The translations under genes were made by a program, and so were the position numbers. Of a stretch of 35,223 bases of DNA, positions 1,463 through 35,223 are shown piece by piece; positions within the stretch are counted from its first letter, which is position 1, and every line of letters starts with the position of its first letter. The stretch covers positions 1-35,223 of the forward strand of contig JAKSPL010000023.1 in the NCBI GenBank assembly GCA_024404815.1. The letters run 5' to 3'. Source of the stretch: Oscillospiraceae bacterium (lineage in GTDB: Bacteria; Bacillota; Clostridia; Oscillospirales; Ruminococcaceae). A model generated the notes under the pieces. The model saw only the letters and a list, made by a program, of their open reading frames with translations, did not search any database and was not told the DNA's origin.

Positions 1463-1580
1463 CTTTGTGGGGGACACTGTCCCCCACACCCCCTGCCAAA
1501 GGGATACTATCCCTTTGGAATCCCATTTTTGCACGAATAATAACATAGTATGGGCGAAGAAAATGGGAGTTCTCCGCACG
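1463..1580 (+). repeat. Dispersed multi-hairpin repeat, copy A
   Basis: Hairpin 1 at 1466-1488 (TGTGGGGGAC/GTCCCCCACA), hairpin 2 at 1496-1518 (AAAGGGATACTATCCCTTT core), then GGAATCCCAT and a third hairpin at about 1554-1577. It lies in the MATE leader. The first 85 bp are almost identical to copy E (24833-24980). The third hairpin is in inverted orientation relative to copies E and F. Confidence 0.9.
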
Positions 1581-1628
1581 TATATTATAATAGTATCCCC
1601 TTTCCAACCGAAAAAGCCCAGAAAAAAA

Positions 1629-1647
1629 GCAGGGTACGAAACCCTGC
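1629..1647 (-). terminator. Intrinsic terminator inside the MATE leader
   Basis: On the minus strand GCAGGGT, loop TTCGT, ACCCTGC, followed directly by seven T. It lies between the MATE promoter (1744-1772) and the MATE start (1426), so it would stop most transcripts before the gene unless relieved. No obvious antiterminator arm is seen upstream. Confidence 0.8.
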
Positions 1648-1663
1648 TGCCAGATAAAAGAAA

Positions 1664-1726
1664 TCAAATCATAGTGTGTAGAACAAAAGAAAGGAGACAA
1701 CAAAACGAGTGAAAATAACATAACAT
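1664..1726 (-). CDS. Possible leader peptide upstream of the MATE gene (20 aa)
   Basis: A 20-codon ORF (MLCYFHSFCCLLSFVLHTMI) begins five bases after a GGTGAT motif near the predicted transcript start and ends 16 nt before the stem of the terminator at 1629-1647. This spacing is what ribosome-mediated attenuation requires, as known for leader peptides of antibiotic-resistance genes. The ribosome site is weak and there is no homology evidence, so the call is tentative. A longer overlapping frame (97 codons, 1446-1739) runs through the terminator and repeat and is probably not a gene. Confidence 0.25.
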   Translation of the reverse strand: MLCYFHSFCCLLSFVLHTMI

Positions 1727-1743
1727 TATTTATCACCACGCTT

Positions 1744-1772
1744 ATTATACATCATGTCAGGCCAATCGTCAA
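1744..1772 (-). promoter_or_regulatory. Sigma-A promoter reading toward the MATE gene
   Basis: Minus strand: -35 TTGACG (1767-1772), 17-bp spacer, -10 TATAAT (1744-1749). Predicted transcript start near 1737, about 310 nt before the MATE start codon. Confidence 0.8.
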
Positions 1773-1928
1773 CCGTTTTTGAAGATTTTCAATTCGAAAA
1801 ACAGGATTTTCGTCAAAATGCACAACAGAATTTGTGAAATATGGTCAGCTTTTCGGTCATCATAGGTGCATCTTCTTCGTGCGGCAAAAACTCCCACGTA
1901 AAATTCGCGTAAAAATCGCGCAAATGAC

Positions 1929-1957
1929 TTTACAAGCCTGTCGTTTTGTGTTATAAT
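1929..1957 (+). promoter_or_regulatory. Sigma-A promoter of the PFOR gene
   Basis: -35 TTTACA (1929-1934), 17-bp spacer, -10 TATAAT (1952-1957). Predicted start near 1964, giving an 80-nt leader that includes the 12-codon ORF at 1991-2029. About 155 bp of AT-rich DNA separates this promoter from the divergent MATE promoter; I see nothing else in that stretch. Confidence 0.8.
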
Positions 1958-1990
1958 AGATTCGTGAAATTCTGCGCGGAGGGTATTGCT

Positions 1991-2029
1991 ATGCCTGCAC
2001 GCGGATTCCCATTATACTATATCTTCTAA
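1991..2029 (+). CDS. Leader peptide ORF upstream of PFOR (12 aa)
   Basis: ATG at 1991 follows a strong GGAGGG ribosome site (1978-1983) with 7-nt spacing and encodes MPARGFPLYYIF. Its TAA stop (2027-2029) overlaps the PFOR Shine-Dalgarno (TAAGGAGG, 2027-2034), so a ribosome ending here sits on the PFOR initiation region. This suggests translational coupling or leader-peptide control. The peptide is not recognised; conservation is untested. Confidence 0.5.
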   Translation: MPARGFPLYYIF

Positions 2030-2043
2030 GGAGGAACATTCCT

Positions 2044-5000
2044 ATGGCAATCGTTCGTAAGAAGAAGACGATGGACGGCAACAATGCTGCTGCTTATGTG
2101 TCCTACGCCTTCACGGAAGTCGCGGGTATCTACCCGATCACGCCTTCCAGCCCGATGGCTGACTATGTTGACCAGTGGGCAGCTCAGGGGCAGAAGAATA
2201 TCTTCGGCACCACTGTTAAGGTTCAGGAGATGCAGTCCGAAGCCGGTGCAGCAGGTACCGTTCACGGCTCCCTGAACGCAGGTGCTCTCACCACTACCTA
2301 CACCGCATCTCAGGGCCTGCTCCTGATGATTCCGAATATGTACAAAATCGCAGGCGAGCTGCTCCCCACAGTTTTCCATGTTTCCGCTCGCTGCGTCGCT
2401 TCTCATGCACTGAATATCTTCGGCGATCACTCCGACGTTTATGCCTGCCGTCAGACCGGTTTCGCTATGCTCGCTGAAACCAACCCGCAGGAAGTTATGG
2501 ACCTCTCTGCTGTTGCACACCTCGCTGCAATCAAGAGCCGCGTTCCGTTCATCAACTTCTTCGACGGCTTCCGTACCTCCCACGAAATCCAGAAGATCCA
2601 GGTCTGGGATTATGAAGACCTCAAGGAAATGTGCGATATGGATGCTGTTAAGGCATTCCGTGACCGCGCTCTGAATCCTGAGCAGCCGACCATGCGTGGT
2701 TCTCACGAAAACGGCGATATCTTCTTCCAGCACCGTGAAGCTTGCAACTCCTACTACAATGCTGTTCCCGGCATCGTTGAGGAATACATGGACAAAGTCA
2801 ATGCAAAGCTCGGCACTGACTACAAGCTCTTCAACTACTACGGCGCAGCTGATGCTGACCGTGTTATCGTTGCTATGGGTTCTATCTGCGACGTTGCAGA
2901 AGAAGTCATCGACTACATGAACGCAAACGGCAATAAGGTCGGTATCGTCAAGGTTCGCCTGTTCCGTCCGTTCTCTGCTGAAAAGCTCGTTGCTGCGATC
3001 CCTGCAACCGCTAAGAAGATCGCTGTCCTCGACAGAACCAAGGAACCCGGCTCCCTCGGCGAACCGCTGTTCCTCGATGTTGTTGCTTCTCTCGCAGCAG
3101 CAGGCAAGTCCGATGTTAAGGTCATCGGCGGCCGCTACGGTCTGGGCTCCAAGGATACTCCTCCTGCAAGCGTCTTCGCAGTATACGATGAGCTGGCAAA
3201 GGATGCTCCGAAGGCTCAGTTCACCATCGGTATCAACGATGATGTTACCTGCCTCTCTCTCGAAGAGAAGGAAGCTCCCAACACCGCAGCAGAAGGCACC
3301 ATCGAGTGCAAGTTCTGGGGTCTCGGCGGCGACGGTACTGTCGGCGCAAACAAGGACTCCATCAAAATCATCGGCGACCACACCGATAAGTTCGTTCAGG
3401 CTTACTTCCAGTACGACTCCAAGAAGACCGGCGGTATCACCATCTCGCACCTGCGTTTCGGTGACAAGCCCATCAAGAGCCCGTACTACATCAATAAGGC
3501 TGACTTCGTCGCTTGCCACAACCCGTCTTACATCCTCAAGGGCTATAAGATGGTCAACGACGTTAAGCCGGGCGGCGTCTTCCTCATCAACTGCCAGTGG
3601 GATGCTGCTGAGATCGGCAACTACCTGAATGCTGAAACCAAGCGTTACATCGCTAAGAACAACATTCAGCTCTACCTCGTAAACGCGATCGACCTCGCTG
3701 CAAAGATCGGTCTGGGCAAGAGAACCAACACCGTTCTGCAGTCCGCATTCTTCTCCCTGTCCAAGGTTCTTCCTGAGGCTGAGGCTATCGGCTACATGAA
3801 GGAAAAGGCTCAGAAGTTCATGAAGAAGGGTATCGAGATCGTTCAGATGAACGAGGCTGCTATCGACGCAGGTGCTACCGCTTACGTCAAGGTTGAGATC
3901 CCTGCTGACTGGGCAAATGCGACCGATGCTGCTTGCGAATGCAACACCAAGGGCGCAGAAAAGCTCGTCAAGATGGTCAACGGCATCATGAATCCTGTTG
4001 GCAAGATGGACGGCGACTCCCTGCCGGTTTCCGCATTCACCGATCACGTTGACGGTACCTTCGAACAGGGTGCTGCTGCTTACGAAAAGCGTGGCGTTGC
4101 TGTTATGGTTCCTGAGTGGAATGCTGACACCTGTGCAAAGTGCAACCGCTGCGCATTTGTCTGCCCGCACGCTACCATTCGTCCGTTCGCTCTGACAGAA
4201 GCTGAGGCTGCTGCTGCTCCGGAAGTTACCAAGTTTGCTCCGAAGCCCATCGTCAAGACCGAATACAAGTACACGCTCGCAGTTTCCGCTATGGACTGCA
4301 TGGGCTGCGGCGTCTGCGTAGGCGTCTGCCCGACCAACTCCCTCAAGATGGTTTCCAGAGAATCTCAGGAAGCTCAGCAGGCTGCATTCGACTACTGTGT
4401 CGAAAAGGTTGCAGAGAAGGCTGACGTTGCTACCAACGCTACCCTCATCTCCAGCCAGTTCAAGAAGCCGCTGCTCGAATTCTCCGGCTCCTGCGCAGGT
4501 TGTGCAGAAACCTCTTACGCTCGTCTGATCACTCAGCTGTTCGGTTCCAGAATGTACATCTCCAACGCTACCGGCTGTTCTTCCATCTGGGGCGGTCCTG
4601 CTGCAACTTCTCCGTACACCACCGATGCAAACGGCAGAGGTCCTGCATGGGCAAACTCCCTGTTCGAAGATAACGCTGAACACGGTCTGGGTATGTACCT
4701 CGGTCAGAAGGCTATTCGTGACCGCCTGATCGAAAAGGTTCAGAACGTTCTGGCTTCTGACTGCGCTTCTGCTGAGCTGAAGGCTGCTGCACAGGCTTAC
4801 CTCGATACCGTTGAAGATGGCGAAAAGAACGCAGCTGCTTCCGAAGCTCTCATCGCTGAGATCGCAAAGGTCGCTGATAAGTGCGACAACTGCGCTGACA
4901 TCTATGCAAACCGCAACTACCTCTCCAAGAAGTCCGTTTGGATCTTCGGCGGCGACGGTTGGGCATATGATATCGGTTTCGGCGGTCTCGACCACGTTCT

Positions 5001-5574
5001 CGCTTCCGGCGAAGACATCAACATCATGGTCTTCGATACCGAAGTTTACTCCAACACCGGTGGTCAGGCTTCTAAGTCCTCCAACATCGGTCAGGTCGCA
5101 CAGTTCGCTTCTGCCGGTAAGGCAATCGCTAAGAAGCGTCTGGCTGACATCGCTATGAGCTATGGTTACATCTATGTCGCTCAGATCGCTATGGGCGCAG
5201 ACATGAACCAGACCCTCAAGGCAATCAAGGAAGCTGAAGCTTACCACGGCCCGTCCCTCATCATCGGCTATGCTCCGTGCGAAATGCACAGCATCAAGGG
5301 CGGTATGCAGAACTGCCAGTCCGAAATGAAGAAGGCTGTCGACTGCGGCTACTGGAACAACTTCCGTTATGATCCGCGTCTGGCTGACGAGGGCAAGAAC
5401 CCGTTCACCCTCGACTCCAAGGCTCCGACCGAGTCTTATCAGGACTTCATCATGAACGAAGCTCGTTACTCCGCTCTGACTCGTTCCTTCCCTGAGCGTG
5501 CAAAAGAATTGTTCGCACAGGCTGAGGATACCGCTAACAAGCGTTACAACCAGCTCGTTGAACTCGCTAAATAA
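2044..5574 (+). CDS. nifJ: Pyruvate:ferredoxin (flavodoxin) oxidoreductase, single-chain
   Basis: Cytoplasmic enzyme that oxidises pyruvate with CoA to acetyl-CoA and CO2 and reduces ferredoxin, the central step of fermentation in anaerobic Clostridia. At 1176 residues it is the full homodimer-type fusion. The N-terminus has the pyruvate-binding YPITPSSPMA motif. Two 4Fe-4S motifs are visible: CAKCNRCAFVCP (C697, C700, C703, C707) and CMGCGVCVGVCP (C752, C755, C758, C762). A CAGC motif near residue 817 and the TPP-binding GDGWAYDIGFGG (about 970) and YSNTGGQASKSS (from 1002) complete the catalytic domain. Start ATG 2044 follows AAGGAGG. Codons are strongly biased, as expected for a highly expressed gene; this bias also opens a long spurious frame on the other strand. 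It is monocistronic, with its own promoter and a perfect terminator at 5591-5630. Confidence 0.98.
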   Translation: MAIVRKKKTMDGNNAAAYVSYAFTEVAGIYPITPSSPMADYVDQWAAQGQKNIFGTTVKVQEMQSEAGAAGTVHGSLNAGALTTTYTASQGLLLMIPNMYKIAGELLPTVFHVSARCVASHALNIFGDHSDVYACRQTGFAMLAETNPQEVMDLSAVAHLAAIKSRVPFINFFDGFRTSHEIQKIQVWDYEDLKEMCDMDAVKAFRDRALNPEQPTMRGSHENGDIFFQHREACNSYYNAVPGIVEEYMDKVNAKLGTDYKLFNYYGAADADRVIVAMGSICDVAEEVIDYMNANGNKVGIVKVRLFRPFSAEKLVAAIPATAKKIAVLDRTKEPGSLGEPLFLDVVASLAAAGKSDVKVIGGRYGLGSKDTPPASVFAVYDELAKDAPKAQFTIGINDDVTCLSLEEKEAPNTAAEGTIECKFWGLGGDGTVGANKDSIKIIGDHTDKFVQAYFQYDSKKTGGITISHLRFGDKPIKSPYYINKADFVACHNPSYILKGYKMVNDVKPGGVFLINCQWDAAEIGNYLNAETKRYIAKNNIQLYLVNAIDLAAKIGLGKRTNTVLQSAFFSLSKVLPEAEAIGYMKEKAQKFMKKGIEIVQMNEAAIDAGATAYVKVEIPADWANATDAACECNTKGAEKLVKMVNGIMNPVGKMDGDSLPVSAFTDHVDGTFEQGAAAYEKRGVAVMVPEWNADTCAKCNRCAFVCPHATIRPFALTEAEAAAAPEVTKFAPKPIVKTEYKYTLAVSAMDCMGCGVCVGVCPTNSLKMVSRESQEAQQAAFDYCVEKVAEKADVATNATLISSQFKKPLLEFSGSCAGCAETSYARLITQLFGSRMYISNATGCSSIWGGPAATSPYTTDANGRGPAWANSLFEDNAEHGLGMYLGQKAIRDRLIEKVQNVLASDCASAELKAAAQAYLDTVEDGEKNAAASEALIAEIAKVADKCDNCADIYANRNYLSKKSVWIFGGDGWAYDIGFGGLDHVLASGEDINIMVFDTEVYSNTGGQASKSSNIGQVAQFASAGKAIAKKRLADIAMSYGYIYVAQIAMGADMNQTLKAIKEAEAYHGPSLIIGYAPCEMHSIKGGMQNCQSEMKKAVDCGYWNNFRYDPRLADEGKNPFTLDSKAPTESYQDFIMNEARYSALTRSFPERAKELFAQAEDTANKRYNQLVELAK

Positions 5575-5590
5575 TTGCTGAGTGAATTAC

Positions 5591-5630
5591 AAAACCTCCG
5601 CATGGTCCGTGATACCATGCGGAGGTTTTT
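5591..5630 (+). terminator. Rho-independent terminator of PFOR
   Basis: Perfect 15-bp stem (AAAACCTCCGCATGG and its complement) with a 9-nt loop and T run, 16 nt after the PFOR stop. The A run on the left makes it potentially bidirectional. Confidence 0.93.
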
Positions 5631-5649
5631 GCATTTTATCTTCCCACAT

Positions 5650-5722
5650 AATGGGATTCCAAAGGGATCCCTTTGGCAGGGGACGCTCACGTTTCGCTTT
5701 GCAAAACGTGAGCGTCCCCCAA
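5650..5722 (-). repeat. Dispersed multi-hairpin repeat, copy B
   Basis: Inverted copy. On the + strand: ATGGGATTCC, then hairpin 2 as a perfect 18-bp palindrome CCAAAGGGATCCCTTTGG (5659-5676), then hairpin 1 (5679-5719) with an unusually long perfect 16-bp stem beginning GGGGACGCTCACG. It lies between the PFOR terminator and the HtrA stop and may double as a terminator for the HtrA gene. Confidence 0.88.
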
Positions 5723-5737
5723 AATCCCGTTGCTGAA

Positions 5738-14228: not shown

Positions 14229-14968
14229 CAGGTCTGCTCTATAAAGACTGGAAACTCCTCCGCACCACGATCATCGTTTTGCTGACCGCATCCGCTGTTA
14301 TGGGTTGTATGCCACTGCTGGTTTTCTTCGGCGGCGATACAAACGGCGTCACGAGCGATGAATTTCAGATGCTCGGCACGCTGATGATGGGATTGTTTTT
14401 CCTTATCACACCCATGTTCACGTTTACCATCATGCCGGAAATCTTCAAGATCGACGAAAAAAAGGAATGGGGACAATTTATCCTCTCCTCGCCTGACGCC
14501 GCAAAAGCTGAGATCCGTACAAAGTACGAATTCGCGCTGGTTTTGATGATACTCAATCTCATCGTCAATATGATCGTTTTATCGTTCGATATGATGGTCA
14601 TGGACGTTGCAAGCTCGATTTCTATCATTCTTGTACTGGAATTCTATCTGATCATGCTGTTAAATGCATTCGAATTTCCGTACTTTACGCGCTTTGGCAC
14701 AAAGAAAGCAAACGCCATCCGCGTTATTCCGCTGCTCATCATTTTCATTGTTTTTTTCGTCTATCTGCTGTTTGGCGACCTCTCTGTATTCGGCGATTTC
14801 GACAAGGTGCTAGAATACATCTTCGATGTGATGACAGGCAAACGCGAAATGAAAGTCATTCCGTATATTACAGCCGCTATGCCGATCGTTGCCGTTGTCG
14901 CGTACATTCTGTCCTATAAGCTCTCCTGCAAACTCTATCGGAAAGGAGTGGAGAAACTTGAAAACTAA
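14216..14968 (+). CDS. ABC-2 type transporter membrane protein 2
   Basis: Second membrane protein of the exporter, 250 aa, about six membrane segments. It opens MRKMTGLLYKDWKLLRTTII, as ABC-2 permeases of the YtrC/YhcI/PhnE-like exporters do. ATG 14216 is preceded by AGGAGGGG and overlaps the previous gene by 13 nt. The pair with the preceding gene suggests a heterodimeric permease. Confidence 0.87.
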   Translation: MRKMTGLLYKDWKLLRTTIIVLLTASAVMGCMPLLVFFGGDTNGVTSDEFQMLGTLMMGLFFLITPMFTFTIMPEIFKIDEKKEWGQFILSSPDAAKAEIRTKYEFALVLMILNLIVNMIVLSFDMMVMDVASSISIILVLEFYLIMLLNAFEFPYFTRFGTKKANAIRVIPLLIIFIVFFVYLLFGDLSVFGDFDKVLEYIFDVMTGKREMKVIPYITAAMPIVAVVAYILSYKLSCKLYRKGVEKLEN

Positions 14969-15812
14969 ATCACTCGAATGGGTAAGAATCGCGATCTATA
15001 CCGTGCTTGCCTGTCTGGGACTGTGGATTCCCATCTGGATTTTTGACTGCAACATCGCAACATCGACCGATCCGACCATCGCCTTTGTCATGCTGTTCGC
15101 CGGTTGTTCGCCTGCATTTGCAAATCTGTTCACGCGACTGCTGACAAAAGAAGGCTTCCATGACAGCTTCCTCCACTTCAACTTCCCGAAAGCATGGAAA
15201 TGGTATATCATCGCACCCATTCTCAATCTGCTGATCGTATCGTTTGGAGATGCATGCGCGTGCTTTGTGTTCAGGGAAAAGCTCGAAGCTGCTGAAGAAG
15301 CCATGACACGCGGCGATATTTGCATGATTCTGCTGAGCGGTTTCGCAACGGTTCTGCTGTTTGCGCTCTATACCCTCGGCGAGGAACTCGGCTGGCGCGG
15401 ATACCTGATGCCACGGCTCGAAAAGCGCATCGGTACTGTCCCCTCTATCATCGTCGGCGGTATCATCTGGGGCATCTGGCACGGTCCGCTGTTCCAGTAC
15501 GGCTACAATTTCGGCACGAACTATCCCCTGTTTCCATACCTTGGAATCGCGCTGATGTGCGCAAATTGCATCGGAATGAACGCGATTTACACATGGCTGA
15601 CCAAGCGCACAGGAACCGTCTATGTTTCCTCCCTCGCACACTCGTGTAATAATGCTCTGAACGGCATCCTCGCATCGTTTATTTTCATGGGTAAAACGAT
15701 CGGTGAGGACAATCTGTTCTATTTTGCACTTGTACAACTTCTCTTTGAGCTCCCGTTCTTCATCCTTTTCACCATTCTCTGCATCAAACACAAACCCTAC
15801 GAAATGCCCTAG
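14958..15812 (+). CDS. CPBP family intramembrane glutamic endopeptidase (CAAX/Abi)
   Basis: Integral membrane protein, 284 aa, of the CPBP family (Rce1-like proteases; bacterial members include bacteriocin self-immunity proteins). Key motifs are EELGWR (E142, E143, R147) and WGIWH (H175), with a third motif near SSLAHSCNNAL. The start is TTG 14958, chosen because AAAGGAG lies 9 nt upstream and no ATG or GTG in frame is near; it overlaps the previous gene by 11 nt. Being last in the YtrA-ABC operon, it probably acts in the same envelope-stress or peptide-resistance response. A bidirectional terminator follows. Confidence 0.9.
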   Translation: MKTKSLEWVRIAIYTVLACLGLWIPIWIFDCNIATSTDPTIAFVMLFAGCSPAFANLFTRLLTKEGFHDSFLHFNFPKAWKWYIIAPILNLLIVSFGDACACFVFREKLEAAEEAMTRGDICMILLSGFATVLLFALYTLGEELGWRGYLMPRLEKRIGTVPSIIVGGIIWGIWHGPLFQYGYNFGTNYPLFPYLGIALMCANCIGMNAIYTWLTKRTGTVYVSSLAHSCNNALNGILASFIFMGKTIGEDNLFYFALVQLLFELPFFILFTILCIKHKPYEMP

Positions 15813-15849: not shown

Positions 15850-15906
15850 TGAATGAGGCTCCGCCTCAAACTCCGCTTAAGGGACTGCGCCCCTTAAGAA
15901 TCCCAT
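15850..15906 (+). repeat. Dispersed multi-hairpin repeat, copy C (diverged)
   Basis: Same architecture with different bases: hairpin 1 TGAGGC/GCCTCA (15854-15868), spacer AACTCCG, hairpin 2 CTTAAGGG/CCCTTAAG (15876-15898), then AATCCCAT. Both stems remain paired although most bases differ from the other copies. Confidence 0.75.
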
Positions 15907-15910
15907 AGAT

Positions 15911-15948
15911 AAAAACAGACCGACTGCATAAGCAGTCGGTCTGTTTTT
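15911..15948. terminator. Bidirectional terminator
   Basis: Perfect 17-bp stem AAAAACAGACCGACTGC with its complement and a 4-nt loop, with A and T tracts on both sides. It ends the + operon and, from the other side, the rsmG transcript. It lies between two oppositely oriented repeat copies (C and D). Confidence 0.93.
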
Positions 15949-15958
15949 ATAAACGAGG

Positions 15959-16012
15959 TTTCCAAAGGGAATCATTCCCTTTGGTGGGGGTTTGGGGGCA
16001 AAGCCCCCATTC
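15959..16012 (-). repeat. Dispersed multi-hairpin repeat, copy D
   Basis: Inverted copy: hairpin 2 CCAAAGGGAAT/ATTCCCTTTGG (15962-15984), spacer TGGGGGTT, hairpin 1 TGGGGGC/GCCCCCA (15993-16009). The inner base pairs of hairpin 2 (AAT/ATT) differ from the other copies in a compensated way. Confidence 0.88.
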
Positions 16013-16041
16013 TAAATGTCGCCCGCGCCCACATCGTGAAA

Positions 16042-16057
16042 TGTTCCACGTGGAACA
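16042..16057. other. parS-like centromere site 1
   Basis: TGTTCCACGTGGAACA, a perfect 16-bp palindrome identical to known bacterial parS sites (ParB/Spo0J binding). The symmetry extends to 24 bp (16038-16061), overlapping the rsmG stop codon. Confidence 0.88.
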
Positions 16058-16059
16058 TT

Positions 16060-16764
16060 TCATAGGGGTTGGCGTTTGATTTTGGCGAAGCGGCGAGGGT
16101 ACTGGGGTGGGGTAGGCGACTGCTTTTTGACGCAGATCAGGTATTTTTGTTCGGATTCAAGCGTATATGGCACGGGTTCACAGGCGATACCGCCGACAAG
16201 AGGTGCAGCTTCTGCGAAACGCTCCACCGTGGGGTCATATCCCCTGCCTTTCATGGCAAGCAAAACGCCTCCGACTTTCACAAATGGAAGAGAAAGTTCT
16301 GTCAGCATTGAACCGTTTGCCATCGCACGAGAAACCGCCATATCGAATTTTTCACGATAATCCGCACTTTTTGCAAGTTCCTCGGCGCGTCCGCAGATCG
16401 GATGGACACGTTCAGATAAGCCGAGCTTTTGTACTGCCATGGTACAAAACTCGATTTTCCGAAGTTCGCTGTCAAGCAGAGTTATATCCAAGTCAGGGCG
16501 AAGAATTGCAAGAGGAATGCCGGGGATCCCGCCGCCTGTTCCAATGTCAATAATCTTCGAAACATCCGCTTCGATATGATGCAAAAGATACGCAGAATCG
16601 AGAAAATGTCTAACCCAAATATCAGAGATTTCCGAAACAGCCGTGACATTCTGAACAGGTGTTTCATCATGCAGCAAAGCCGCATACTGAGAGAGAAGTT
16701 GATATTGTTCTTCGGACAAATCAAGCTGATACGCGGAAAACAGGCTGCAATACGTTTCAAGCAT
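16060..16764 (-). CDS. rsmG: 16S rRNA (guanine527-N7)-methyltransferase RsmG (GidB)
   Basis: SAM-dependent enzyme that methylates G527 of 16S rRNA. 234 aa, within the family range. The SAM-binding motif is IIDIGTGGGIPGIPLAI, followed by LLDSELRKIEF and the MAVSRAMA region. ATG 16764 was chosen over an in-frame GTG at 16773 since GGGTGG sits 5 nt before it. Its start overlaps the mnmG stop by 8 nt (ATGCTTGA), implying coupled translation. It is the last gene of the cluster and is followed by a parS-like site. Confidence 0.97.
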   Translation of the reverse strand: MLETYCSLFSAYQLDLSEEQYQLLSQYAALLHDETPVQNVTAVSEISDIWVRHFLDSAYLLHHIEADVSKIIDIGTGGGIPGIPLAILRPDLDITLLDSELRKIEFCTMAVQKLGLSERVHPICGRAEELAKSADYREKFDMAVSRAMANGSMLTELSLPFVKVGGVLLAMKGRGYDPTVERFAEAAPLVGGIACEPVPYTLESEQKYLICVKKQSPTPPQYPRRFAKIKRQPL

Positions 16765-18637: not shown

Positions 18638-18658
18638 TGCGACACTTCCTTTCAAAAA

Positions 18659-18674
18659 TGTTCCACGTGGAACA
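18659..18674. other. parS-like centromere site 2
   Basis: TGTTCCACGTGGAACA, perfect 16-bp palindrome between mnmE and mnmG, 22 bp upstream of the mnmG start. Confidence 0.88.
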
Positions 18675-18692
18675 AAATGCGACACAGCAAAA

Positions 18693-18708
18693 CGTTCCAC
18701 GTGGAACA
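18693..18708. other. parS-like centromere site 3
   Basis: CGTTCCACGTGGAACA, one base from the perfect palindrome, 18 bp beyond site 2 and adjacent to the mnmE stop codon. Confidence 0.8.
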
Positions 18709-18713
18709 ATCCA

Positions 18714-20063
18714 TTATTTTCCTACACAAAACTTTGAGAAGACACCGTTCACGACATCTTCTGAAACATTATCGCCATCCAGAGAGTACAGCGCATTCGC
18801 TGCAACTTCGAGAGAATGGTAAACAATGTCAAGTGGCTGATTTCCTAGTAAATCCGCAATTCCACCCTGCAATGCAGTCAAAGCCTTCTCAATCAGGGTG
18901 CGCTGACGCTCATTGAGAATCGCCATGTCCGAATTTGAATCAGGGACAGGATAACCCTGTTTTAACGCATCACAAAGTGCATCCTCGCCAACCTGTTCTT
19001 TTGCGGCACAAACAGCAATCGGTATTTCCATCTGCGGAGGGTTCGTATTCGTCAAGTCACTTTTGTTCCAGAGCAGAATGCGCTTTTTGTCAGCAAAACG
19101 GTGTAAAATCGCATCGTCCTCGGCAGTCAGTCCGACGGCCGCGTCCACCACATAGAGAATCAAATCGGATTCCGCAACTTCGTCAAAGGCCGCCTCAATG
19201 CCGATGGTTTCGATGGGGTTATTCGCTTCTCGGATGCCTGCCGTATCAGCCAAAAGTAACGTATATTCGCCAAAACGAACCTGTTCGGTCACAACATCGC
19301 GTGTCGTACCAGCAATGTCCGTGACGATGCTTCGGCGCGTGCCTGCAAGCCAATTCATGACGGAAGATTTTCCTGCATTCGGAAGTCCGAGCAAAACCGT
19401 TCGGATTCCTTCGCGGAAAACTTTACCGTTTTGATAGGTATCCAGCAGTTTTTGTAAATCGCCGCACACGCCGCTAAGTGATGAAAGCAACGTATCTTCT
19501 TGTAATTCAGGCGGAAATTCCTCTGCGTCATCCATCCAGTAGGCAAATGCCGAAAGCATTTCTGTGATTCGTTCGGAACACTCTCGCATCCGTTTGGACA
19601 GCCGTCCGCTTCTTGCATAATTCGCCTGTTTCAGCGCGATTTCTCCATCTGCGGCGATAACATCCATGACTGCTTCCGCCTGTGAAAGAGAGAGTTTTCC
19701 ATTTAGATACGCGCGTTTTGTGAATTCTCCTGCACCTGCCGGCTGTGCGCCCACACGGTACAACAGCGACAAAATTCTTCGGCAGAGATACACGCCGCCA
19801 TGACAGGTGATCTCGACAACGTCCTCGCCCGTGTAGCTGTGCGGCGCACGAAACACGGTCAGCACAACATCATCGAGCGTTTGTTCGCCATCGCAAATCG
19901 TTCCGTAGGCGCACGTATATCCACGCATTTCCGTCACTTTTCTACCGTTTGCCGCATGGAAGATCTGTTCAGCAAGCGGTAAGGAATCCTCGCCAGAAAT
20001 CCGAATCATTCCGATTCCGCCCGATGCGTTCGGTGTCGAAATCGCCGCAACCGTCTCCGACAT
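18714..20063 (-). CDS. mnmE: tRNA modification GTPase MnmE (TrmE)
   Basis: GTPase partner of MnmG in wobble-uridine modification. 449 aa. The N-terminal folate-binding domain covers about 1-115 (AAISTPNASGGIGMIRISG). The embedded G domain shows GLPNAGKSS (G1), DIAGTTRD (G2), DTAGIRE (G3) and NKSD (G4). The C-terminus ends FCVGK, matching the family's catalytic FC(I/V)GK with its conserved Cys. ATG 20063 follows ACGGAGGAAAA; upstream in-frame ATGs lie within a terminator-like hairpin. It sits 50 bp after jag, separated by that hairpin. Confidence 0.98.
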   Translation of the reverse strand: MSETVAAISTPNASGGIGMIRISGEDSLPLAEQIFHAANGRKVTEMRGYTCAYGTICDGEQTLDDVVLTVFRAPHSYTGEDVVEITCHGGVYLCRRILSLLYRVGAQPAGAGEFTKRAYLNGKLSLSQAEAVMDVIAADGEIALKQANYARSGRLSKRMRECSERITEMLSAFAYWMDDAEEFPPELQEDTLLSSLSGVCGDLQKLLDTYQNGKVFREGIRTVLLGLPNAGKSSVMNWLAGTRRSIVTDIAGTTRDVVTEQVRFGEYTLLLADTAGIREANNPIETIGIEAAFDEVAESDLILYVVDAAVGLTAEDDAILHRFADKKRILLWNKSDLTNTNPPQMEIPIAVCAAKEQVGEDALCDALKQGYPVPDSNSDMAILNERQRTLIEKALTALQGGIADLLGNQPLDIVYHSLEVAANALYSLDGDNVSEDVVNGVFSKFCVGK

Positions 20064-23834: not shown

Positions 23835-24785
23835 ATGGACGAACAGCAATTCCAACCAACACAGCAATCCGACGATCAGCAGCCCGACACACAGCCAACA
23901 CCCCCTCCTGCTGCACCCGTACCGAAAAAACAGCCAAAACCAAAATTCCAGAAGCCGCTCCTCGGCGCACTCGGATGGTTCGGCTTTGCATATCTCATCT
24001 GCAATATGGTTGCAATCTGTGCCATCACCATTGATCCGCTGGATCCCGAAAGTGAGAGAAAAACTCTCTGTATGAGTCTGCTGCTTGCAGTCGGCGGTGT
24101 CATAGCCCTGATTATTTTCCATAAAATATACGAGCGCGACGGTTTCTGTAATTTTGCTACAAACGGCAATATCAAGCTCGCTGCCCTGCTGATCATCCCC
24201 GCGATCCTCTATAATCTGACCGGTATTTTCTTTGCTACGCGTATGCCCTCCATGCGGACAACGATTCTCTCGTTCCAGGCAGGCATCGCCGAAGAAGTCA
24301 TGTTCCGTGCGCTTCCGATCGCCTATATGATGCGTGCATACAAGTTCGATGAGAAAAAGGTTGCGATTCCTGTTGTTGTGACCGGCGTGTTCTTCGGATT
24401 GTTCCACGCAACCAATATGTTCATGGGCGCACCGCTGAAATCAACGATTTATCAGGTCGCCGCGTGCATCGGCATCGGTGTTTTGTTCGGTGCGGTCTAT
24501 ATGCGTTCCGGCAATATCATTTTCTGCATGGTCAGCCATGTTTTGCAGGACTTTATCGCACTGCTCAATGAATCATCCGTCAGCGAAGACGGCATTATGA
24601 AAGATATCGAATTCACCTCAGATGTCATTCTGGACATTGCGCTGATCGCTGTGTTTATCATCATCGGAATGTTCTACATCCGCAAATCCAAGCGCGGCGA
24701 GATCGTCGAACGCTGGAAGAAGATCTGGTCATATACCGACGAAACGGAAGTACCTGCCGAACCTGTACAGATCGAAACCGTATAA
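23835..24785 (+). CDS. CPBP family intramembrane glutamic endopeptidase
   Basis: Membrane protein of 316 aa with a cytoplasmic Gln/Pro-rich N-terminus (1-40, QPTPPPAAPVPKKQPKPK) and about eight hydrophobic segments. The CPBP motifs are EEVMFR (E153, E154, R158), FFGLFH (H191) and MVSHVLQD (H235, D239), so the catalytic set is complete. ATG 23835 follows AAAGGAG. The gene is monocistronic, with a consensus promoter and a terminator. It occupies the place, divergent from rpmH, where dnaA normally lies in Firmicutes. Its substrate is unknown. Confidence 0.9.
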   Translation: MDEQQFQPTQQSDDQQPDTQPTPPPAAPVPKKQPKPKFQKPLLGALGWFGFAYLICNMVAICAITIDPLDPESERKTLCMSLLLAVGGVIALIIFHKIYERDGFCNFATNGNIKLAALLIIPAILYNLTGIFFATRMPSMRTTILSFQAGIAEEVMFRALPIAYMMRAYKFDEKKVAIPVVVTGVFFGLFHATNMFMGAPLKSTIYQVAACIGIGVLFGAVYMRSGNIIFCMVSHVLQDFIALLNESSVSEDGIMKDIEFTSDVILDIALIAVFIIIGMFYIRKSKRGEIVERWKKIWSYTDETEVPAEPVQIETV

Positions 24786-24789: not shown

Positions 24790-24824
24790 AAAAGAGAACC
24801 TGAGTTTCGGGTTCTCTTTTTTTT
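24790..24824 (+). terminator. Rho-independent terminator of the CPBP gene
   Basis: AAAAGAGAACC, short loop, GGTTCTCTTTT and further T residues, 5 bp after the stop codon. Confidence 0.93.
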
Positions 24825-24832: not shown

Positions 24833-24980
24833 TTGTGGGGGACGCTGTCCCCCACACCCCCTGCCAAAGGGATACTATCCCTTTGGAATCCCATTTTAGC
24901 ACGAATGATAGTATAGTAAGGGCGGAGAGATAGTTCTTCGCCCTTTTTGTATGTGTGTACACCGCGAAGCGCAACAAAAG
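24833..24980 (+). repeat. Dispersed multi-hairpin repeat, copy E (longest form)
   Basis: Hairpin 1 at 24834-24856, hairpin 2 at 24864-24886, GGAATCCCAT, then hairpin 3 at 24918-24945 (AAGGGCG/CGCCCTT with T run) and a GCGAAGCGCAACAAAAG end. Homology to copy F covers about 145 bp. The rest of the gap up to the purB promoter (24981-25045) holds nothing I recognise. Confidence 0.92.
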
Positions 24981-29315: not shown

Positions 29316-29323
29316 GTTATGAT
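29294..29323 (+). promoter_or_regulatory. Probable promoter of the isomerase-nrdR pair
   Basis: -35 TTGCAT (29294-29299), 18-bp spacer, -10 TATGAT (29318-29323). It lies within the hairpin after secF, so termination and initiation may be linked. Confidence 0.5.
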
Positions 29324-29365
29324 AGACTGGTAAAAAAGTTTATGCAGCGCAAAGGGGGAGTACCG

Positions 29366-30157: not shown

Positions 30158-30200
30158 AGAAAAGTAGAACAAATGCAAAACCGAAAGGAGTCACCCAACC

Positions 30201-30647
30201 ATGCGCTGTCCCTTCTGCGGAGAAGATGACACAAAAGTCGTGGATTCCCGTTCTGTTGACGGCAAAAAGAAACGCCGCCGTCATTGCCTGAAATGCGGAA
30301 AACGCTTCACGACCTTTGAGGCCTACGACCGTCCCCTGCTGATGGTCGCAAAACGTGACGGCAGTTTCGAGCCGTTCAATCGCAACAAACTCATTGCAGG
30401 TATTTATTCTGCCATCAAAAAACGCCCTGTCCATATGGAGGACGTCAACAATATGGTGGACGAGATCGAGTCCGAACTGCAAGGCGGTATGGTCAATACC
30501 GTTTCGCCCGACCAGATCGGTTCCATGGTCATGGAACGGCTTCGGAAGATCGACAGCGTCGCCTATGTCCGTTTCGCTTCCGTTTATATGGCGTTTTCCA
30601 ATGTCGAGGATTTCATCCGCATCATCAGCGAAATGCAGCAGAAGTAA
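30201..30647 (+). CDS. nrdR: Transcriptional repressor NrdR
   Basis: ATP/dATP-sensing repressor of ribonucleotide reductase genes. 148 aa. N-terminal zinc ribbon MRCPFCG (C3, C6) and HCLKCGKRF (C29, C32), then the ATP-cone (about 46-136, LLMVAKRDGSFEPFNRNKLIAGI... SVAYVRFASVY). ATG 30201 follows AAAGGAG. No ribonucleotide reductase gene is in the window. Its stop codon directly abuts the stop codon of the convergent gene at 30648. Confidence 0.98.
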   Translation: MRCPFCGEDDTKVVDSRSVDGKKKRRRHCLKCGKRFTTFEAYDRPLLMVAKRDGSFEPFNRNKLIAGIYSAIKKRPVHMEDVNNMVDEIESELQGGMVNTVSPDQIGSMVMERLRKIDSVAYVRFASVYMAFSNVEDFIRIISEMQQK

Positions 30648-31070
30648 TTATTTTACACGCTCCATTTCCTGTGTCGCAGCGTCGTAGACCATCGCCCCGA
30701 CCAGTTCGTCCCCACAGACGACCAGCTGGGCATAAAATGTGTCCGCACGCAGATTTTCGACATGATATACATACCGCACAGCCGACCGACCGCCGTAATT
30801 CTCAGGCGAAAGTCCCTGTGCAAGCTGTAAGTCAAGCCACGTTTGTCCTGCATCGGTACGGTACTGCGTCGGCATCCGCATGGATTCCTCCGACACCGCC
30901 GTCACCTCCCAGCCGTATAGATTCAGCCACGCTTCCCTTGTACAGGCGTCAGGCAATCGGACGATCCCCTGCGGTTTTGCATCGGCAGAGTCCCCGAAAA
31001 CGGCAATGCAGCCAAGCGCAGTCCCACAGGTCAGCAGGCATCCCAGAATGATTCCTGTCTGCCGCTTCAT
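30648..31070 (-). CDS. Exported DUF4830-like protein
   Basis: 140-aa protein with an N-terminal hydrophobic signal or anchor (about 5-27, TGIILGCLLTCGTALGCIAVFG) and a compact domain. The pattern REAWLNLYGWEV, then MPTQYR, LDLQLAQGLSPENYGGRSAVRYVYHVEN and LVVCGDELVGAMVYD resembles the DUF4830 family of Clostridia, function unknown. ATG 31070 follows GGGGAGG. It converges on nrdR with no intergenic base and no terminator between them. The assignment is from memory of the family pattern, not a search. Confidence 0.75.
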   Translation of the reverse strand: MKRQTGIILGCLLTCGTALGCIAVFGDSADAKPQGIVRLPDACTREAWLNLYGWEVTAVSEESMRMPTQYRTDAGQTWLDLQLAQGLSPENYGGRSAVRYVYHVENLRADTFYAQLVVCGDELVGAMVYDAATQEMERVK

Positions 31071-31148
31071 CTGACATCACCTCCCCGAACGATCTCAACG
31101 CATTCTATGCGGAAATCGTGTACGGGATTCCTCGAAAGGAGCATTTTT

Positions 31149-31928
31149 ATGCGCCTTGACCGATTTCTCTCCGAACAGACCGCCCTCTCCCGCAAGGACG
31201 CACAGACGGCAATTCGGAAGGGAAGCGTTACCGTGGACGGCATCGTCGTGAAAAAGCCCGACCACACGGTGTTCCCTGAAAAAAACGAGATCTCCCTCGC
31301 GGGAAAACCACTTGTTTTCGCGGAACATCACTACTTTCTGCTGCACAAGCCCGAGGGTGTCATCACCGCAACGGAGGACGCAAAGCAGAAAACTGTCCTC
31401 GATTTGCTGAGCGCGGACGACCGTCTGCCGAAGCTTGCCCCCTGCGGCAGGCTCGACATCGACACAACAGGTCTGCTCCTCATCACCGATGACGGTCAGC
31501 TTTCCCACAGAATGCTCTCCCCGAAACACCATGTTATGAAATATTACCTTGCAAAACTCAGCGAGCCGCTTTCGGCGGACACAAAGCCGCGCTTTGCAGA
31601 TGGCATTGCGATCCGCGAGGGCGCAGGCGAAGTCATCTGTCAGCCTGCCGAATGCGAAGAGATCGCGCCCTGTCTTGCCGTTGTCGGCATCCACGAGGGC
31701 AGGTACCATCAGGTCAAGCGAATGTTCGCGGCGGTCGGCAATCATGTCGAAAAACTCCTGCGGTTTCAGATCGGAAATGTCCCGTTACCGCCCGATTTGC
31801 CCCTCGGAGCGTATTTCGTCATTTCTGACAAAGAAGCAGGCGAAATGTTGATGAATCCTGCATTTTCAAGCATTTGCGCGTTTTGCAAAGAAAATTATTC
31901 GTCATATTGGATAAACAATCAAGCGTAA
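31149..31928 (+). CDS. rsuA: 16S rRNA pseudouridine synthase, RsuA family
   Basis: Converts a uridine (U516 in E. coli) of 16S rRNA to pseudouridine. 259 aa. N-terminal S4 RNA-binding domain (MRLDRFLSEQTALSRKDAQ..AIRKGSVTVDG), then the catalytic motif GRLDIDTTGLLLITDDG with the nucleophile Asp (GRLD), LSPKHHVMKYYLAKL typical of RsuA rather than RluB, and EGRYHQVKRMFAAVG. ATG 31149 follows AAAGGAG; an in-frame ATG at 31107 has no ribosome site. The last 20 residues (CKENYSSYWINNQA) extend beyond the usual end. Confidence 0.93.
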   Translation: MRLDRFLSEQTALSRKDAQTAIRKGSVTVDGIVVKKPDHTVFPEKNEISLAGKPLVFAEHHYFLLHKPEGVITATEDAKQKTVLDLLSADDRLPKLAPCGRLDIDTTGLLLITDDGQLSHRMLSPKHHVMKYYLAKLSEPLSADTKPRFADGIAIREGAGEVICQPAECEEIAPCLAVVGIHEGRYHQVKRMFAAVGNHVEKLLRFQIGNVPLPPDLPLGAYFVISDKEAGEMLMNPAFSSICAFCKENYSSYWINNQA

Positions 31929-31946
31929 GTTTGGGCAATTATCGAC

Positions 31947-31975
31947 TTGACCTGAGCGAAAAAATCTGGTATGAT
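31947..31975 (+). promoter_or_regulatory. Sigma-A promoter of the UgpC-type ATPase gene
   Basis: -35 TTGACC (31947-31952), 17-bp spacer, -10 TATGAT (31970-31975). Leader of about 155 nt. Confidence 0.82.
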
Positions 31976-32027
31976 ATTAGAAAGTGATTTTTCATGTCAC
32001 TTGCCCACATTCCATTTGTTTCATTTT

Positions 32028-32103
32028 GTATGCGGTCAGACGCATACTTGTCGGAAGTCGGTTTCGCGGATTGTCCGTTCGCCTCTCAGCCGGTATTCCG
32101 ACA
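32028..32103 (+). promoter_or_regulatory. Structured 5' leader of the UgpC-type ATPase gene
   Basis: A hairpin GTATGCG/CGCATAC (32028-32047) is followed by a long-range perfect stem TGTCGGAA (32049-32056) with TTCCGACA (32096-32103), enclosing CGGA/TCCG (32067-32077) and CGG/CCG pairings. No terminator follows; the fold ends 25 nt before the ribosome site. Resembles no riboswitch class I know. Confidence 0.45.
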
Positions 32104-32138
32104 TGATAAAATTTGAATTTTTTAGGAGGACACACAGA

Positions 32139-33260
32139 ATGGCAAGCTTATCTCTGCGGGGTATCTACAAGAAGTACCCCGGCGGCGTTGTCGCAGTTTC
32201 CGATGTTAATCTCGAGATCCGCGACAAGGAATTTATCGTACTGGTCGGACCTTCCGGCTGCGGTAAGTCCACAACCCTGCGTATGATCGCAGGTCTGGAA
32301 GAAATCTCCGAGGGCGAACTTTACATCGGCGACCGTCTGGTCAACGACATCGCTCCGAAGGACCGCGATATCGCAATGGTTTTCCAGAACTACGCTCTGT
32401 ATCCGCATATGACCGTTTTCGACAACATGGCATTCGGTCTGAAGCTCCGCAAGGTTCCGAAGGAAGAAATCAACCGCAAAGTTGAGGAAGCTGCACGTAT
32501 CCTCGACCTCACTCCGCTGCTCAACCGTAAGCCGAAGGCTATGTCCGGTGGTCAGCGTCAGCGTGTGGCTCTCGGCCGTGCTATCGTTCGTAACCCGCAG
32601 GTATTCCTCCTCGACGAGCCGCTGTCCAACCTGGACGCTAAGCTCCGTGCGCAGATGAGAACCGAAATCTCCCTGCTCCACAAGCGTCTCGGTACTACGT
32701 TCATCTATGTAACGCATGACCAGACAGAAGCTATGACCATGGGCGACCGTATCGTTGTCATGAAGGGCGGCTTCATTCAGCAGATCGATACTCCGCAGAA
32801 CCTGTACGAAACTCCGTGCAACAAGTTCGTTGCAGGATTCCTCGGTTCTCCGCAGATGAACTTCATCGATGCAATGCTCAACTACACCGATGGCAAGTAT
32901 GTTGTCACATTCGGCAGCAACCGTGCACAGTATGAAGTTGTTCTTCCGCAGAACAAGGTTACTCCGGATCTCGAACACTATATCGGTAAAGAGATCATCC
33001 TCGGTATCCGTCCGGAGAATGTCCACGACGAGCCGATGTATCTCGCAAACGCTACCACCGGTATCGTTAAGTGCAACGTCGAAATCACCGAGCTGATGGG
33101 TGCTGAAACCTATCTGTATCTCGACTGCGAAGGCGTCAAGATCACTGCTCGTGTTTCCCCGAAGTCCACTGCTCGCGCTCAGGACGACATCGATGTCGTT
33201 TTCGATGCAGAGAAGATCCACCTCTTCGACAAGGAAACCGAAAAGACCATCATCAACTGA
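32139..33260 (+). CDS. ugpC: Carbohydrate ABC transporter ATP-binding protein, UgpC/MsmK/MalK family
   Basis: ATPase that energises CUT1-type sugar importers. 373 aa, the family length. Walker [10 protein letters not shown] (about 37-45), Q-loop [10 protein letters not shown], signature [15 protein letters not shown], Walker [17 protein letters not shown], switch VTHDQTEAM, then the C-terminal TOBE/regulatory domain (from about 235, with LGIRPENV). ATG 32139 follows TTAGGAGG; upstream in-frame codons lie in the leader. No permease or binding-protein gene is adjacent, so it is probably a shared ATPase serving several sugar importers, as MsmK does in streptococci. Strong codon bias agrees with high expression. 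Confidence 0.95.
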
Positions 33261-33271
33261 TTGTTGCTTTC

Positions 33272-33306
33272 AAGCAGGGCATTCGTTTGGATGCCCTGCT
33301 TTTTTG
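33272..33306 (+). terminator. Rho-independent terminator of the UgpC-type gene
   Basis: AAGCAGGGCAT, 8-nt loop, ATGCCCTGCTT and T run, 11 bp after the stop codon. Confidence 0.93.
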
Positions 33307-33369
33307 TGTGGAGAGTGCGATCTGTGGTGCAGCACACTTGCGAGATAGCGGCGCCCTAAGAACCTGCAA

Positions 33370-33516
33370 GCTTTTGATTTGCTTCGCGCTTATAGCATAA
33401 AAAAGGGTGAAGAACTAAATATCCGTCCTTTCCATGCTATCATTCATGCTAAAATGGGATTCCAAAGGGACAATGTCCCTTTGGCAGGGGGCTTGGGGGA
33501 CAGCGTCCCCCAAAAA
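33370..33516 (-). repeat. Dispersed multi-hairpin repeat, copy F
   Basis: Inverted full-length copy: hairpin 3 at 33403-33430 (AAGGGTG/CGTCCTT, kept paired by two G-U wobbles), hairpin 2 at 33462-33484, hairpin 1 at 33493-33513. It fills most of the gap before the FAD-dehydrogenase gene; no clear promoter for that gene is visible in the gap. Reading through it adds a spurious N-terminal extension to that gene's frame. Confidence 0.92.
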
Positions 33517-33552
33517 ACTCTCCCCAAAAAACCGAAAGGAGACAGTAACGCA

Positions 33553-35154
33553 ATGCTCAGACTGAACAACCTGCCGCTGAAACTCGGATACAGCGATGAG
33601 GACTTGCAGAAAATTGTTGCAAATACGCTGAAAATCAATCCATCAGAGATACTGTCCGCAGTCCTCGCAAAGCGTTCGGTCGATGCCCGAAAAGGTGTAC
33701 AGTTTATTGCTTCCGTAGATCTGAACGTCAAAAACGAAGCGCAGATTCTTCGCAAATGCGCGAAAAACAAGAATCTTCAGAAAATAACGCCGTTTGTGAT
33801 GCCGATTTATCCCAAACGAAAAACGGCGCATCCGCCTGTCATCATCGGATGCGGTCCCGCAGGACTGTTCGCCGCAGACGTCCTCGCGCAGGCAGGACTC
33901 TGCCCGATTCTGCTGGAACGCGGAAAACCCGTTTCGGAACGGCAAAAATCCGTTGCTGCATACCACAGCACGGGCGTCCTCGACCCCGAGAGCAACGTGC
34001 AGTTCGGCGAGGGCGGTGCCGGTACGTTCTCCGACGGAAAGCTGAATACAGGCACGAAAAGTCCGCAGATACGTCAGGTTTTGCAGACGTTCGTGGATTG
34101 CGGCGCACCTGACGAGATCCTCTGGCAGGCAAAGCCGCACATCGGCACGGACAAGCTCGCAGAGTGCATCCCCACACTCCGCCGCCGCATCGAACAAAAC
34201 GGCGGTCAAGTGCTGTTCGGTGCAAAATGTATTGGATTTACTGCACAAAACGGACAGATCGTTTCTGTGGAGTATGTACAAGGCGGCGTGGAGAAAAGCA
34301 TTCGCACAGACGCGGCGATTTTTGCAGTCGGGCATAGTGCAAGGGACGTATTTGCGATGTTTCAGAATAAGAGCATGGCAATGGAACAAAAGGCATTCTC
34401 GCTCGGTGTGAGAATCGAACACCGACAGCGCGACATCGACAAAATGTGCTACGGGACGGCGGCATCGCACCCTGCGCTCGGCGCGGCAAGCTACAAACTC
34501 GCTGCACATCTGCCCGACGGACGCGGCGTTTACACATTTTGTATGTGTCCGGGCGGCGTTGTGCAGGCGGCGGCATCCGAAGCGGAAACCGTCGTCACAA
34601 ACGGCATGAGCTGTTTTGCGAGAGATGCTGAAAATGCCAATTCTGCGTTACTTGTGGGGATTTCGCCTGCGGATTTCGGGAGCGACGATGTGCTGGCAGG
34701 TGTCGCGCTTCAACGGAAAATCGAGCACGACGCATTTCTCGCAGGCGGCAGTACGGGAAAAGCCCCCGTCACGCTGCTGGAGGATTTCCTGAAAAATCAG
34801 CAGCCGCGTTGTTTTGGAGATGTACAGCCGAGTTATCCGCTGGGAACGGTACTCGAAAAACCCGAAAGCTGTCTGCCGAAATTTATCTGCGATGCCCTGC
34901 GTACCGCGCTCCCGAAGCTGGACAGCAGTCTGCACGGATTTCTTCGTAACGACGCAGTTTTGACAGCACCCGAAACCAGAAGTTCCTCCCCCGTCCGCGT
35001 TCTCCGAAACGCCGAAACCCTCGAATCCGTCAGCGTCCGCGGACTCTACCCCTGCGGCGAGGGCGCAGGCTACGCAGGCGGCATCGTCAGCGCGGCTGTG
35101 GACGGCATTCGCTGCGCGGAGAGGATTATTCAACGTATCTCCGATGATTTGTAA
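33553..35154 (+). CDS. FAD-dependent dehydrogenase, COG2509 type, function unknown
   Basis: 533-aa cytoplasmic flavoprotein. An N-terminal domain of about 90 residues (MLRLNNLPLKLGY... ARKGVQFIASVDL) precedes the Rossmann FAD site VIIGCGPAGLFAADVLA (GxGxxG at 99-104). Further motifs are LERGKPVSERQ, NVQFGEGGAGTFSDGKLNTGTKS, IFAVGHSARDVF, CMCPGGVV and the C-terminal FAD motif LYPCGEGAGYAGGIVSAAVDG. This set matches the uncharacterised COG2509 dehydrogenases common in Clostridia and Bacteroidetes; the physiological substrate is not known. ATG 33553 follows AAAGGAG with 11-nt spacing; the in-frame start at 33379 would translate repeat copy F and is rejected. Confidence 0.9.
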   Translation: MLRLNNLPLKLGYSDEDLQKIVANTLKINPSEILSAVLAKRSVDARKGVQFIASVDLNVKNEAQILRKCAKNKNLQKITPFVMPIYPKRKTAHPPVIIGCGPAGLFAADVLAQAGLCPILLERGKPVSERQKSVAAYHSTGVLDPESNVQFGEGGAGTFSDGKLNTGTKSPQIRQVLQTFVDCGAPDEILWQAKPHIGTDKLAECIPTLRRRIEQNGGQVLFGAKCIGFTAQNGQIVSVEYVQGGVEKSIRTDAAIFAVGHSARDVFAMFQNKSMAMEQKAFSLGVRIEHRQRDIDKMCYGTAASHPALGAASYKLAAHLPDGRGVYTFCMCPGGVVQAAASEAETVVTNGMSCFARDAENANSALLVGISPADFGSDDVLAGVALQRKIEHDAFLAGGSTGKAPVTLLEDFLKNQQPRCFGDVQPSYPLGTVLEKPESCLPKFICDALRTALPKLDSSLHGFLRNDAVLTAPETRSSSPVRVLRNAETLESVSVRGLYPCGEGAGYAGGIVSAAVDGIRCAERIIQRISDDL

Positions 35155-35167
35155 TGGGGCGAAGTTT

Positions 35168-35223
35168 GTTTGTGGGGACGCTGTCCCCACACCCCTGCCA
35201 AAGGGACATTGTCCCTTTGGAAT
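35168..35223 (+). repeat. Dispersed multi-hairpin repeat, copy G (cut by window end)
   Basis: Hairpin 1 TGTGGGGAC/GTCCCCACA at 35171-35191 and hairpin 2 with AAAGGGACA/TGTCCCTTT at 35198-35220, 16 bp after the dehydrogenase stop codon; the GGAAT tail runs off the edge. Confidence 0.9.

Follow-up and report, generated by a model that had tools for sequence, protein, structure and literature searches.

Dispersed two-hairpin repeats of a Ruminococcaceae bacterium are probably arms of miniature elements moved by IS1182-type transposases and inserted at terminator hairpins

What are the seven two-hairpin repeats that lie between the genes of a 35,223-nucleotide (nt) stretch of Oscillospiraceae bacterium DNA (Ruminococcaceae; assembly GCA_024404815.1, contig JAKSPL010000023.1, positions 1 to 35,223 of the forward strand; hereafter the window), and what has spread them? 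The initial annotation, made from the letters of the window, described hairpin 1 (HP1), a C-rich spacer and hairpin 2 (HP2) with covarying stems, and proposed either selection on RNA or DNA structure or a hairpin-based amplification of the REP/RAYT kind (repetitive extragenic palindromes, REP, with their associated tyrosine transposases, RAYT). We consider it probable that the repeats are the arms and remnants of a family of miniature inverted-repeat transposable elements (MITEs) which are moved by IS1182-type transposases, insert at terminator hairpins and duplicate the stem-loop that they enter. Element ends that abut stem-loops, duplication of those stem-loops and an insertion sequence (IS) carrying an intact IS1182-family transposase together make this the best reading of the repeats.

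In relatives (genomes and loci carry G and L numbers below), HP1 and HP2 lie towards the inside of a longer symmetrical element bounded by 16-nt inverted repeats, CAGNYTGTNGANAAAG. The complete element is a long imperfect palindrome, running from the CAGNYTGTNGANAAAG terminal repeat through HP0, HP1, HP2 and conserved linkers to an AT-rich centre and a mirror arm, which has like linkers and different stems. Elements with HP2 in one or both arms measure about 180-280 nt; a form without HP2 (L273) has 93 nt. The two hairpins first described are therefore real, but the unit that they make up is an arm of something longer. The end motif occurs 15 times in the genome from which the window comes (the own genome), 174 times in G008, 53 in G027, 51 in G022 and twice in G028, while the reversed pattern, used as a control, gave 0 or 1 match per strand.

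These ends lie against hairpins. A stem-loop was found within 0-3 nt of 111 of the 128 distinct ends (score ≥6; the 128 include both ends of some elements), whereas the share was 5.7% among 962 random positions and 7.1% among positions shifted by 35 nt; at a stricter score (≥8) the figures were 96 of 128 ends, 2.0% and none. Such targeting of palindromes is what would be expected of an IS1182-family MITE. The abutted stem-loop varies in sequence from site to site and is usually terminator-like, with five or more T in the next 10 nt after 62 of the 96 stem-loops that passed the stricter score.

The whole stem-loop is duplicated on both flanks in 14 of 27 relaxed end pairs (score ≥15), namely 13 MITEs and one IS, with duplicates of 25-36 nt; none of 698 cross-locus pairings reached this score, their maximum being 11.5. 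What is doubled is the complete stem-loop, ending at its foot, for example at L103, L108, L117, L118, L144, L152, L189, L250 and L251, and the near-identical elements L117 and L118 stand at different terminators within one genome. A flank comparison that made no use of the end motif, and overlaps the end-pair test, gave scores of at least 20 for 16 of 88 elements (11 of 99 having been dropped for short flanks) and for 0.8% of 880 controls, although among the 16 there are a few cases of tandem copies or of non-hairpin similarity (as at L101). Occupied and empty arrangements are seen at the 3′ end of serA, where G022 has terminator, element and terminator, and all 19 other informative genomes (2 of 22 were uninformative) have a single terminator and no element. 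At the 3′ end of rsmG, 25 congeners gave a match, and inspection by eye of up to 330 nt found in none of them the pair of copies that the window has there; G006, the nearest, has one plain terminator. Terminator stems differ between species, so that these are empty arrangements and not identical empty sequences. The amplification at hairpins suggested by the initial annotation is borne out to this extent, in that it looks like transposition.

Could the doubled terminators be the work of ordinary recombination or of template switching at palindromes, with the element as passive filler? Tandem arrays at L152, L111 and L183 would suit such a process, but the junctions are always at the same 16-nt end and an intact transposase lies between such ends, and we regard this explanation as quite improbable.

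The transposase in question is encoded at L371 (G007), where a complete IS of 1,636 bp, the one IS among the 14 duplicated cases, with a 505-amino-acid (aa) open frame, has identical 28-nt terminator-like hairpins on both sides. Its product scores 426 bits with NCBIfam NF033551 (cut-off 270) and matches Pfam PF05598, PF01609 and PF13751, which places it in the IS1182 family. A second open frame of 483 aa at L376 (G025; NF033551, 332 bits) is incomplete at its C-terminal end; the left end of this IS adjoins a hairpin, and its right end was not found. At the contig edge L252 (G027) there remain the left end and first codons of an IS. Relatives or fragments of the L371 transposase occur in 9 of 30 genus genomes, and NF033551 matches in 11 of 30, being above the cut-off in 2. 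The sequence CAGNYTGTCGAAAAAG is the left end of L371, L376, L238 and L252, and is found also at MITE ends in relatives and in L026 of the own genome; the lineage thus contains both an autonomous relative of the kind that a MITE needs and IS ends that match.

On the reading as IS1182-moved MITEs, a DDE transposase, supplied in trans, would join the 3′ ends of the element to the two 5′ feet of the target stem-loop, probably while the latter is extruded and usually at an intrinsic terminator directly after a gene. Gap filling would then copy the whole stem-loop, giving terminator-element-terminator regardless of hairpin length. After such an insertion the upstream hairpin copy would be without a U-run and the downstream copy would retain it, so that the element should ride in the 3′ untranslated region (UTR) while transcription still terminates, a condition under which insertions would be tolerable. 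This could explain how some 100 insertions at gene ends came about without termination being destroyed.

Palindromic targets of some IS1182 members are credited to Siguier et al. 2015 (by PMC5678879 and PMC4923244). IS1272, of the IS1182 family, targets stem-loops and replaces them, with no target duplication (PMC5678879), and terminator hairpins, partly deleted, are among the targets given by Furi et al. 2016 (PMC4923244). IS1272/TnSha1 share with our elements the transposase family, 16-bp terminal repeats and stem-loop targets (terminators included) chosen by structure and not by sequence; they differ in that their target stem-loop is replaced or partly deleted, whereas here it is duplicated for one IS and for MITEs. 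Wan et al. 2017 put forward, as a proposed pathway only, that a stem-loop would be duplicated if its 5′ feet were joined to the 3′ ends of the element (PMC5678879). MITEPye1 of Paracoccus yeei is likewise non-autonomous, with IS1182-like ends, a mostly intergenic position in chromosomes and long stem-loops, but has 1-3 copies per chromosome and 4-bp direct repeats, and is not known to duplicate a hairpin (PMC11578231); one IS1182 member is tabulated with a direct-repeat value of 4 (PMC3281130). Searches of open-licence papers brought to light no case in which an IS1182 element duplicates a stem-loop. The ISfinder family table gives direct repeats of 0-60 bp for IS1182, and single cases of duplication may therefore be on record there. 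Whereas the target hairpin is lost in the published IS1182 cases cited here, it is retained, and doubled, in this lineage by both an IS and a numerous MITE family, which makes the duplicating pathway, so far only drawn, directly testable.

Several observations weigh against this reading. In the published accounts of IS1272 the target hairpin is replaced or trimmed, and not duplicated (PMC5678879, PMC4923244). No adjoining stem-loop was detected, by the score used, at 17 of the 128 ends, and 13 of the 27 relaxed end pairs are without a long duplication, some of these probably being false pairs; L272 and L273 have two unlike hairpins on their sides, and at L192:685-936 there is a 10-bp duplication (AGATTTATAA) at a target that is not a hairpin. 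Among the 73 own-genome copies with enough flank, none was duplicated at a score of at least 14 (controls 4.3%) and one at a score of at least 12 (controls 6.3%). The right end of the IS, CAGACTGTCCATAAAG, is one fixed base off the MITE motif, and beyond the terminal repeat no likeness between MITE and IS was visible by eye. Searches for an IS1182 transposase found none in the own genome assembly (84% complete) or in the copy-rich genomes G008 and G027, and no 16-nt end (≤1 mismatch) occurs in the window.

How, then, do the window copies belong to such elements? All seven were recovered by covariance model and inspection, at or near the positions first given for them; one, reported at 33370, lies about 60 nt away, at 33430-33514 (copy F). 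They and the hairpins beside them are laid out as follows.

1466-1550, plus strand: copy A, with HP1 at 1466-1488, the C-rich linker, HP2 at 1496-1518 and the AATCCCATTTT linker.
5592-5628: terminator-like hairpin adjoining copy B.
5629-5719, minus strand: copy B, with HP2 at 5659-5676 and HP1 at 5679-5719, which has an extra hairpin inside its loop.
15850-15919, plus strand: copy C, with HP1 at 15854-15868 and HP2, of the CTTAAGGG type, at 15876-15898.
15915-15944, no strand assigned: terminator-like hairpin at the centre of the C/D pair, with an A-run on its 5′ side and a T-run on its 3′ side.
15940-16012, minus strand: copy D, with HP2 at 15962-15984 and HP1 at 15991-16009.
24834-24918, plus strand: copy E, with HP1 at 24834-24856 and HP2 at 24864-24886, preceded by a terminator-like hairpin at 24790-24820.
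24918-24945, plus strand: hairpin 3 (HP3), a terminator-like hairpin which comes after the AATCCCATTTT linker in many own-genome copies.
33430-33514, minus strand: copy F, with HP2 at 33462-33484, HP1 at 33493-33513 and an HP3-like hairpin at 33401-33431.
35170-35223, plus strand: copy G, with HP1 at 35171-35191 and HP2 at 35198-35220, cut by the contig end.

None of the copies is within the Pfam-matching parts of genes; copy F overlaps the frame at 33379-35154 only when that frame is read from its longest start, and the likely ATG of the frame comes after the copy. Copies C and D, downstream of rsmG, are two arms that form an inverted pair, and a central terminator between two arms was seen by eye here and at L120, L194 and L115. 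The window copies are truncated arms, so that their membership of the MITE family rests on their homologues: they are homologous to the elements of relatives; all seven of the own-genome ends examined (of 15) adjoin a hairpin; at L026 such an end runs continuously into HP2-HP1; and at L061 one adjoins an HP3-type hairpin. The HP1-side end is missing in own-genome copies. We suggest that the truncated copies of the window arose by the same insertion route.

The family is far larger than the window. A covariance model (R1) of HP1, linker and HP2, built from 26 copies and holding 18 pairs, was run on the own genome (59 contigs, 1.97 Mb) and, with the best 150 of 731 candidates scored, yielded at least 148 matches at E≤10. 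We kept 107 of these places as copies and set aside 41 rows that were weak or that read a palindromic stem in antisense. Both arms of a single element are sometimes counted among the 107, and we put the family at about 100 arm copies. Several matches, copy G included, reach contig ends, and the family offers a concrete reason for assembly breaks at gene ends in such gut bacteria. With the best 75 candidates per genome scored, R1 matched 28 of 29 sampled congeners at E≤0.1, the exception being G013; outside the genus, G034 (another genus of the same family) had at least 29 matches and a few others were sparse. A scan with the HP2 string found at least 103 stretches, mostly in Ruminococcus and in Oscillospiraceae or Clostridia genomes, with R. 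flavefaciens isolates among the matches listed. That the repeats are a genuine dispersed family was thus correctly recognised from the window.

In Fundidesulfovibrio agrisoli, of another phylum, a GCCTCCGGCGG-like hairpin followed by CCAAAGGGAGTTCCTCCCTTTGGAATCCCAT is found on several contigs (L148, L158, L166, L168, L169, L176, L180), a likeness that could be due either to transfer between phyla or to convergence.

The kinship with REP systems that was proposed at first fares less well. Like REP, BIME and REPIN sequences with their RAYTs, which are high-copy intergenic hairpins that form inverted pairs and depend on an enzyme in trans, the present repeats are numerous, hairpinned, intergenic and partly paired, and in outline they too would rely on a trans-acting enzyme. 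They differ in having inverted element ends and target duplication, and no tie to a Y1 (IS200-type) transposase. A search of the own assembly, 84% complete, gave no match to the Y1 domain PF01797, and among same-genus genomes (own included) it occurred in 3 of 23, copy-rich G008 not being one of them and G027 lying outside that set; the search found it in 5 of 14 controls. Y1 enzymes would not be expected to duplicate their target directly, and the transposase that does lie between the same ends in this genus is a DDE enzyme belonging to the IS1182 family. Movement by a RAYT is accordingly a most improbable account of these repeats.

Two further systems invite comparison. In architecture the pneumococcal BOX and RUP repeats resemble ours, being modular intergenic repeats of several structured units. 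The double-hairpin elements of fungal and algal mitochondria also are mobile GC-rich paired hairpins with stem change that preserves pairing, but they belong to organelle DNA and are not known to have a transposase.

What of the covarying stems? In 89 distinct own-genome copies, 95.4% of the stem cells of the alignment are paired; both partners have changed in 107 cells and one partner in 26, and 66 cells are unpaired. Shuffles gave 28.5 double changes, none of 500 reaching 107, and slid partners gave at most 14, although the alignment, having been fitted to the structure, is biased towards it. The commonest stem types of HP1 and HP2 occur in all four combinations (27, 18, 13 and 7 copies), which suggests that the two hairpins change, or are exchanged, independently of each other. 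The HP2 stems of the two arms differ in 20 of 20 parsed elements, where re-pairing would lead one to expect 6.7 with the same stem (0 of 5000 shuffles were as low), a count that overstates the independent cases because the 20 are related by descent. The CTTAAGGG stem of copy C is of the type usual on the arm opposite to that of D; part of the apparent covariation therefore compares two arms, and copy C, whose stem the initial annotation read as changed, need not be a compensated version of D. Pairing-preserving change beyond that of shuffles is thus real, yet it lies partly between unlike arms. Such change in repeats, usually read as RNA selection, can partly stem from a mobile element whose arms are unlike and exchangeable.

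A structured RNA element of gene 3′ UTRs (a stabiliser of mRNA or a terminator module), its fold under selection and its spread secondary, would account for pairing that is kept although stem columns diverge more from the commonest base (mean 11.7%) than do the linker columns directly after HP2 (4.0%; the tail beyond this linker diverges by 5 to 56% per column). It would also suit the orientation of the copies: by crude calls of open reading frames, and with 12 of the 107 copies left out for want of usable flanks, 63 of the 79 own-genome copies with a called gene on their left turn their HP1 side towards a 3′ gene end, at a median of 17 nt past the stop codon. The occurrence of the element is not conserved, however, at the two orthologous gene ends compared (serA and rsmG), Rfam has no match for it, and its ends and duplications are those typical of a DNA transposon; we therefore hold this explanation to be unlikely. 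RNA selection is compatible with the four stem combinations and the unlike arms, but on its own is not needed for either.

A known structured RNA family is rejected on the evidence of Rfam 15, which gave no match at gathering score in the window and only two tRNAs in nine loci of relatives, in agreement with the view that no named family covers the repeat. Plain terminators are rejected also: most copies adjoin terminator-like hairpins and are not themselves those hairpins.

If IS1182-moved MITEs do double a hairpin at each insertion, the element may itself have grown by nesting, the hairpin-element-hairpin unit being mobile at times, so that HP2/HP2′, HP1/HP1′, HP0/HP0′ and the HP3 of the own genome would be fossil terminators, and their unlike stems would avoid a perfect, unstable palindrome. 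We offer this only as a speculation, and a rather doubtful one.

Some loci show further arrangements of these hairpins. HP1 loops that contain further hairpins (window 5679-5719; L018) look like the product of one hairpin's insertion into another. At L152:1426-2035, terminators and elements alternate in tandem (terminator-element-terminator-element-terminator), like a repeat-spacer array. L250:1501-1725 and L251:1272-1516 have like ends and doubled terminator hairpins without the CCAAAGGG hairpin, and given such other element types, several MITE families may share ends. A 58-bp mini-palindrome at L256:356-413 resembles a pair of IS1182 right ends set back to back; 2 nt separate it from a complete element, for which it may have been the target hairpin.

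Elsewhere in the window, two genes for Rce1-like (CAAX) proteases, at 14889-15812 and 23835-24785, each stand directly upstream of one repeat copy. Three GTTCCACGTGGAAC palindromes, at 16039-16063, 18656-18680 and 18690-18714, surround rsmG (GidB) and a neighbouring long frame; they resemble parS sites, and the motif lies 3′ of rsmG also in most of the relatives inspected by eye.

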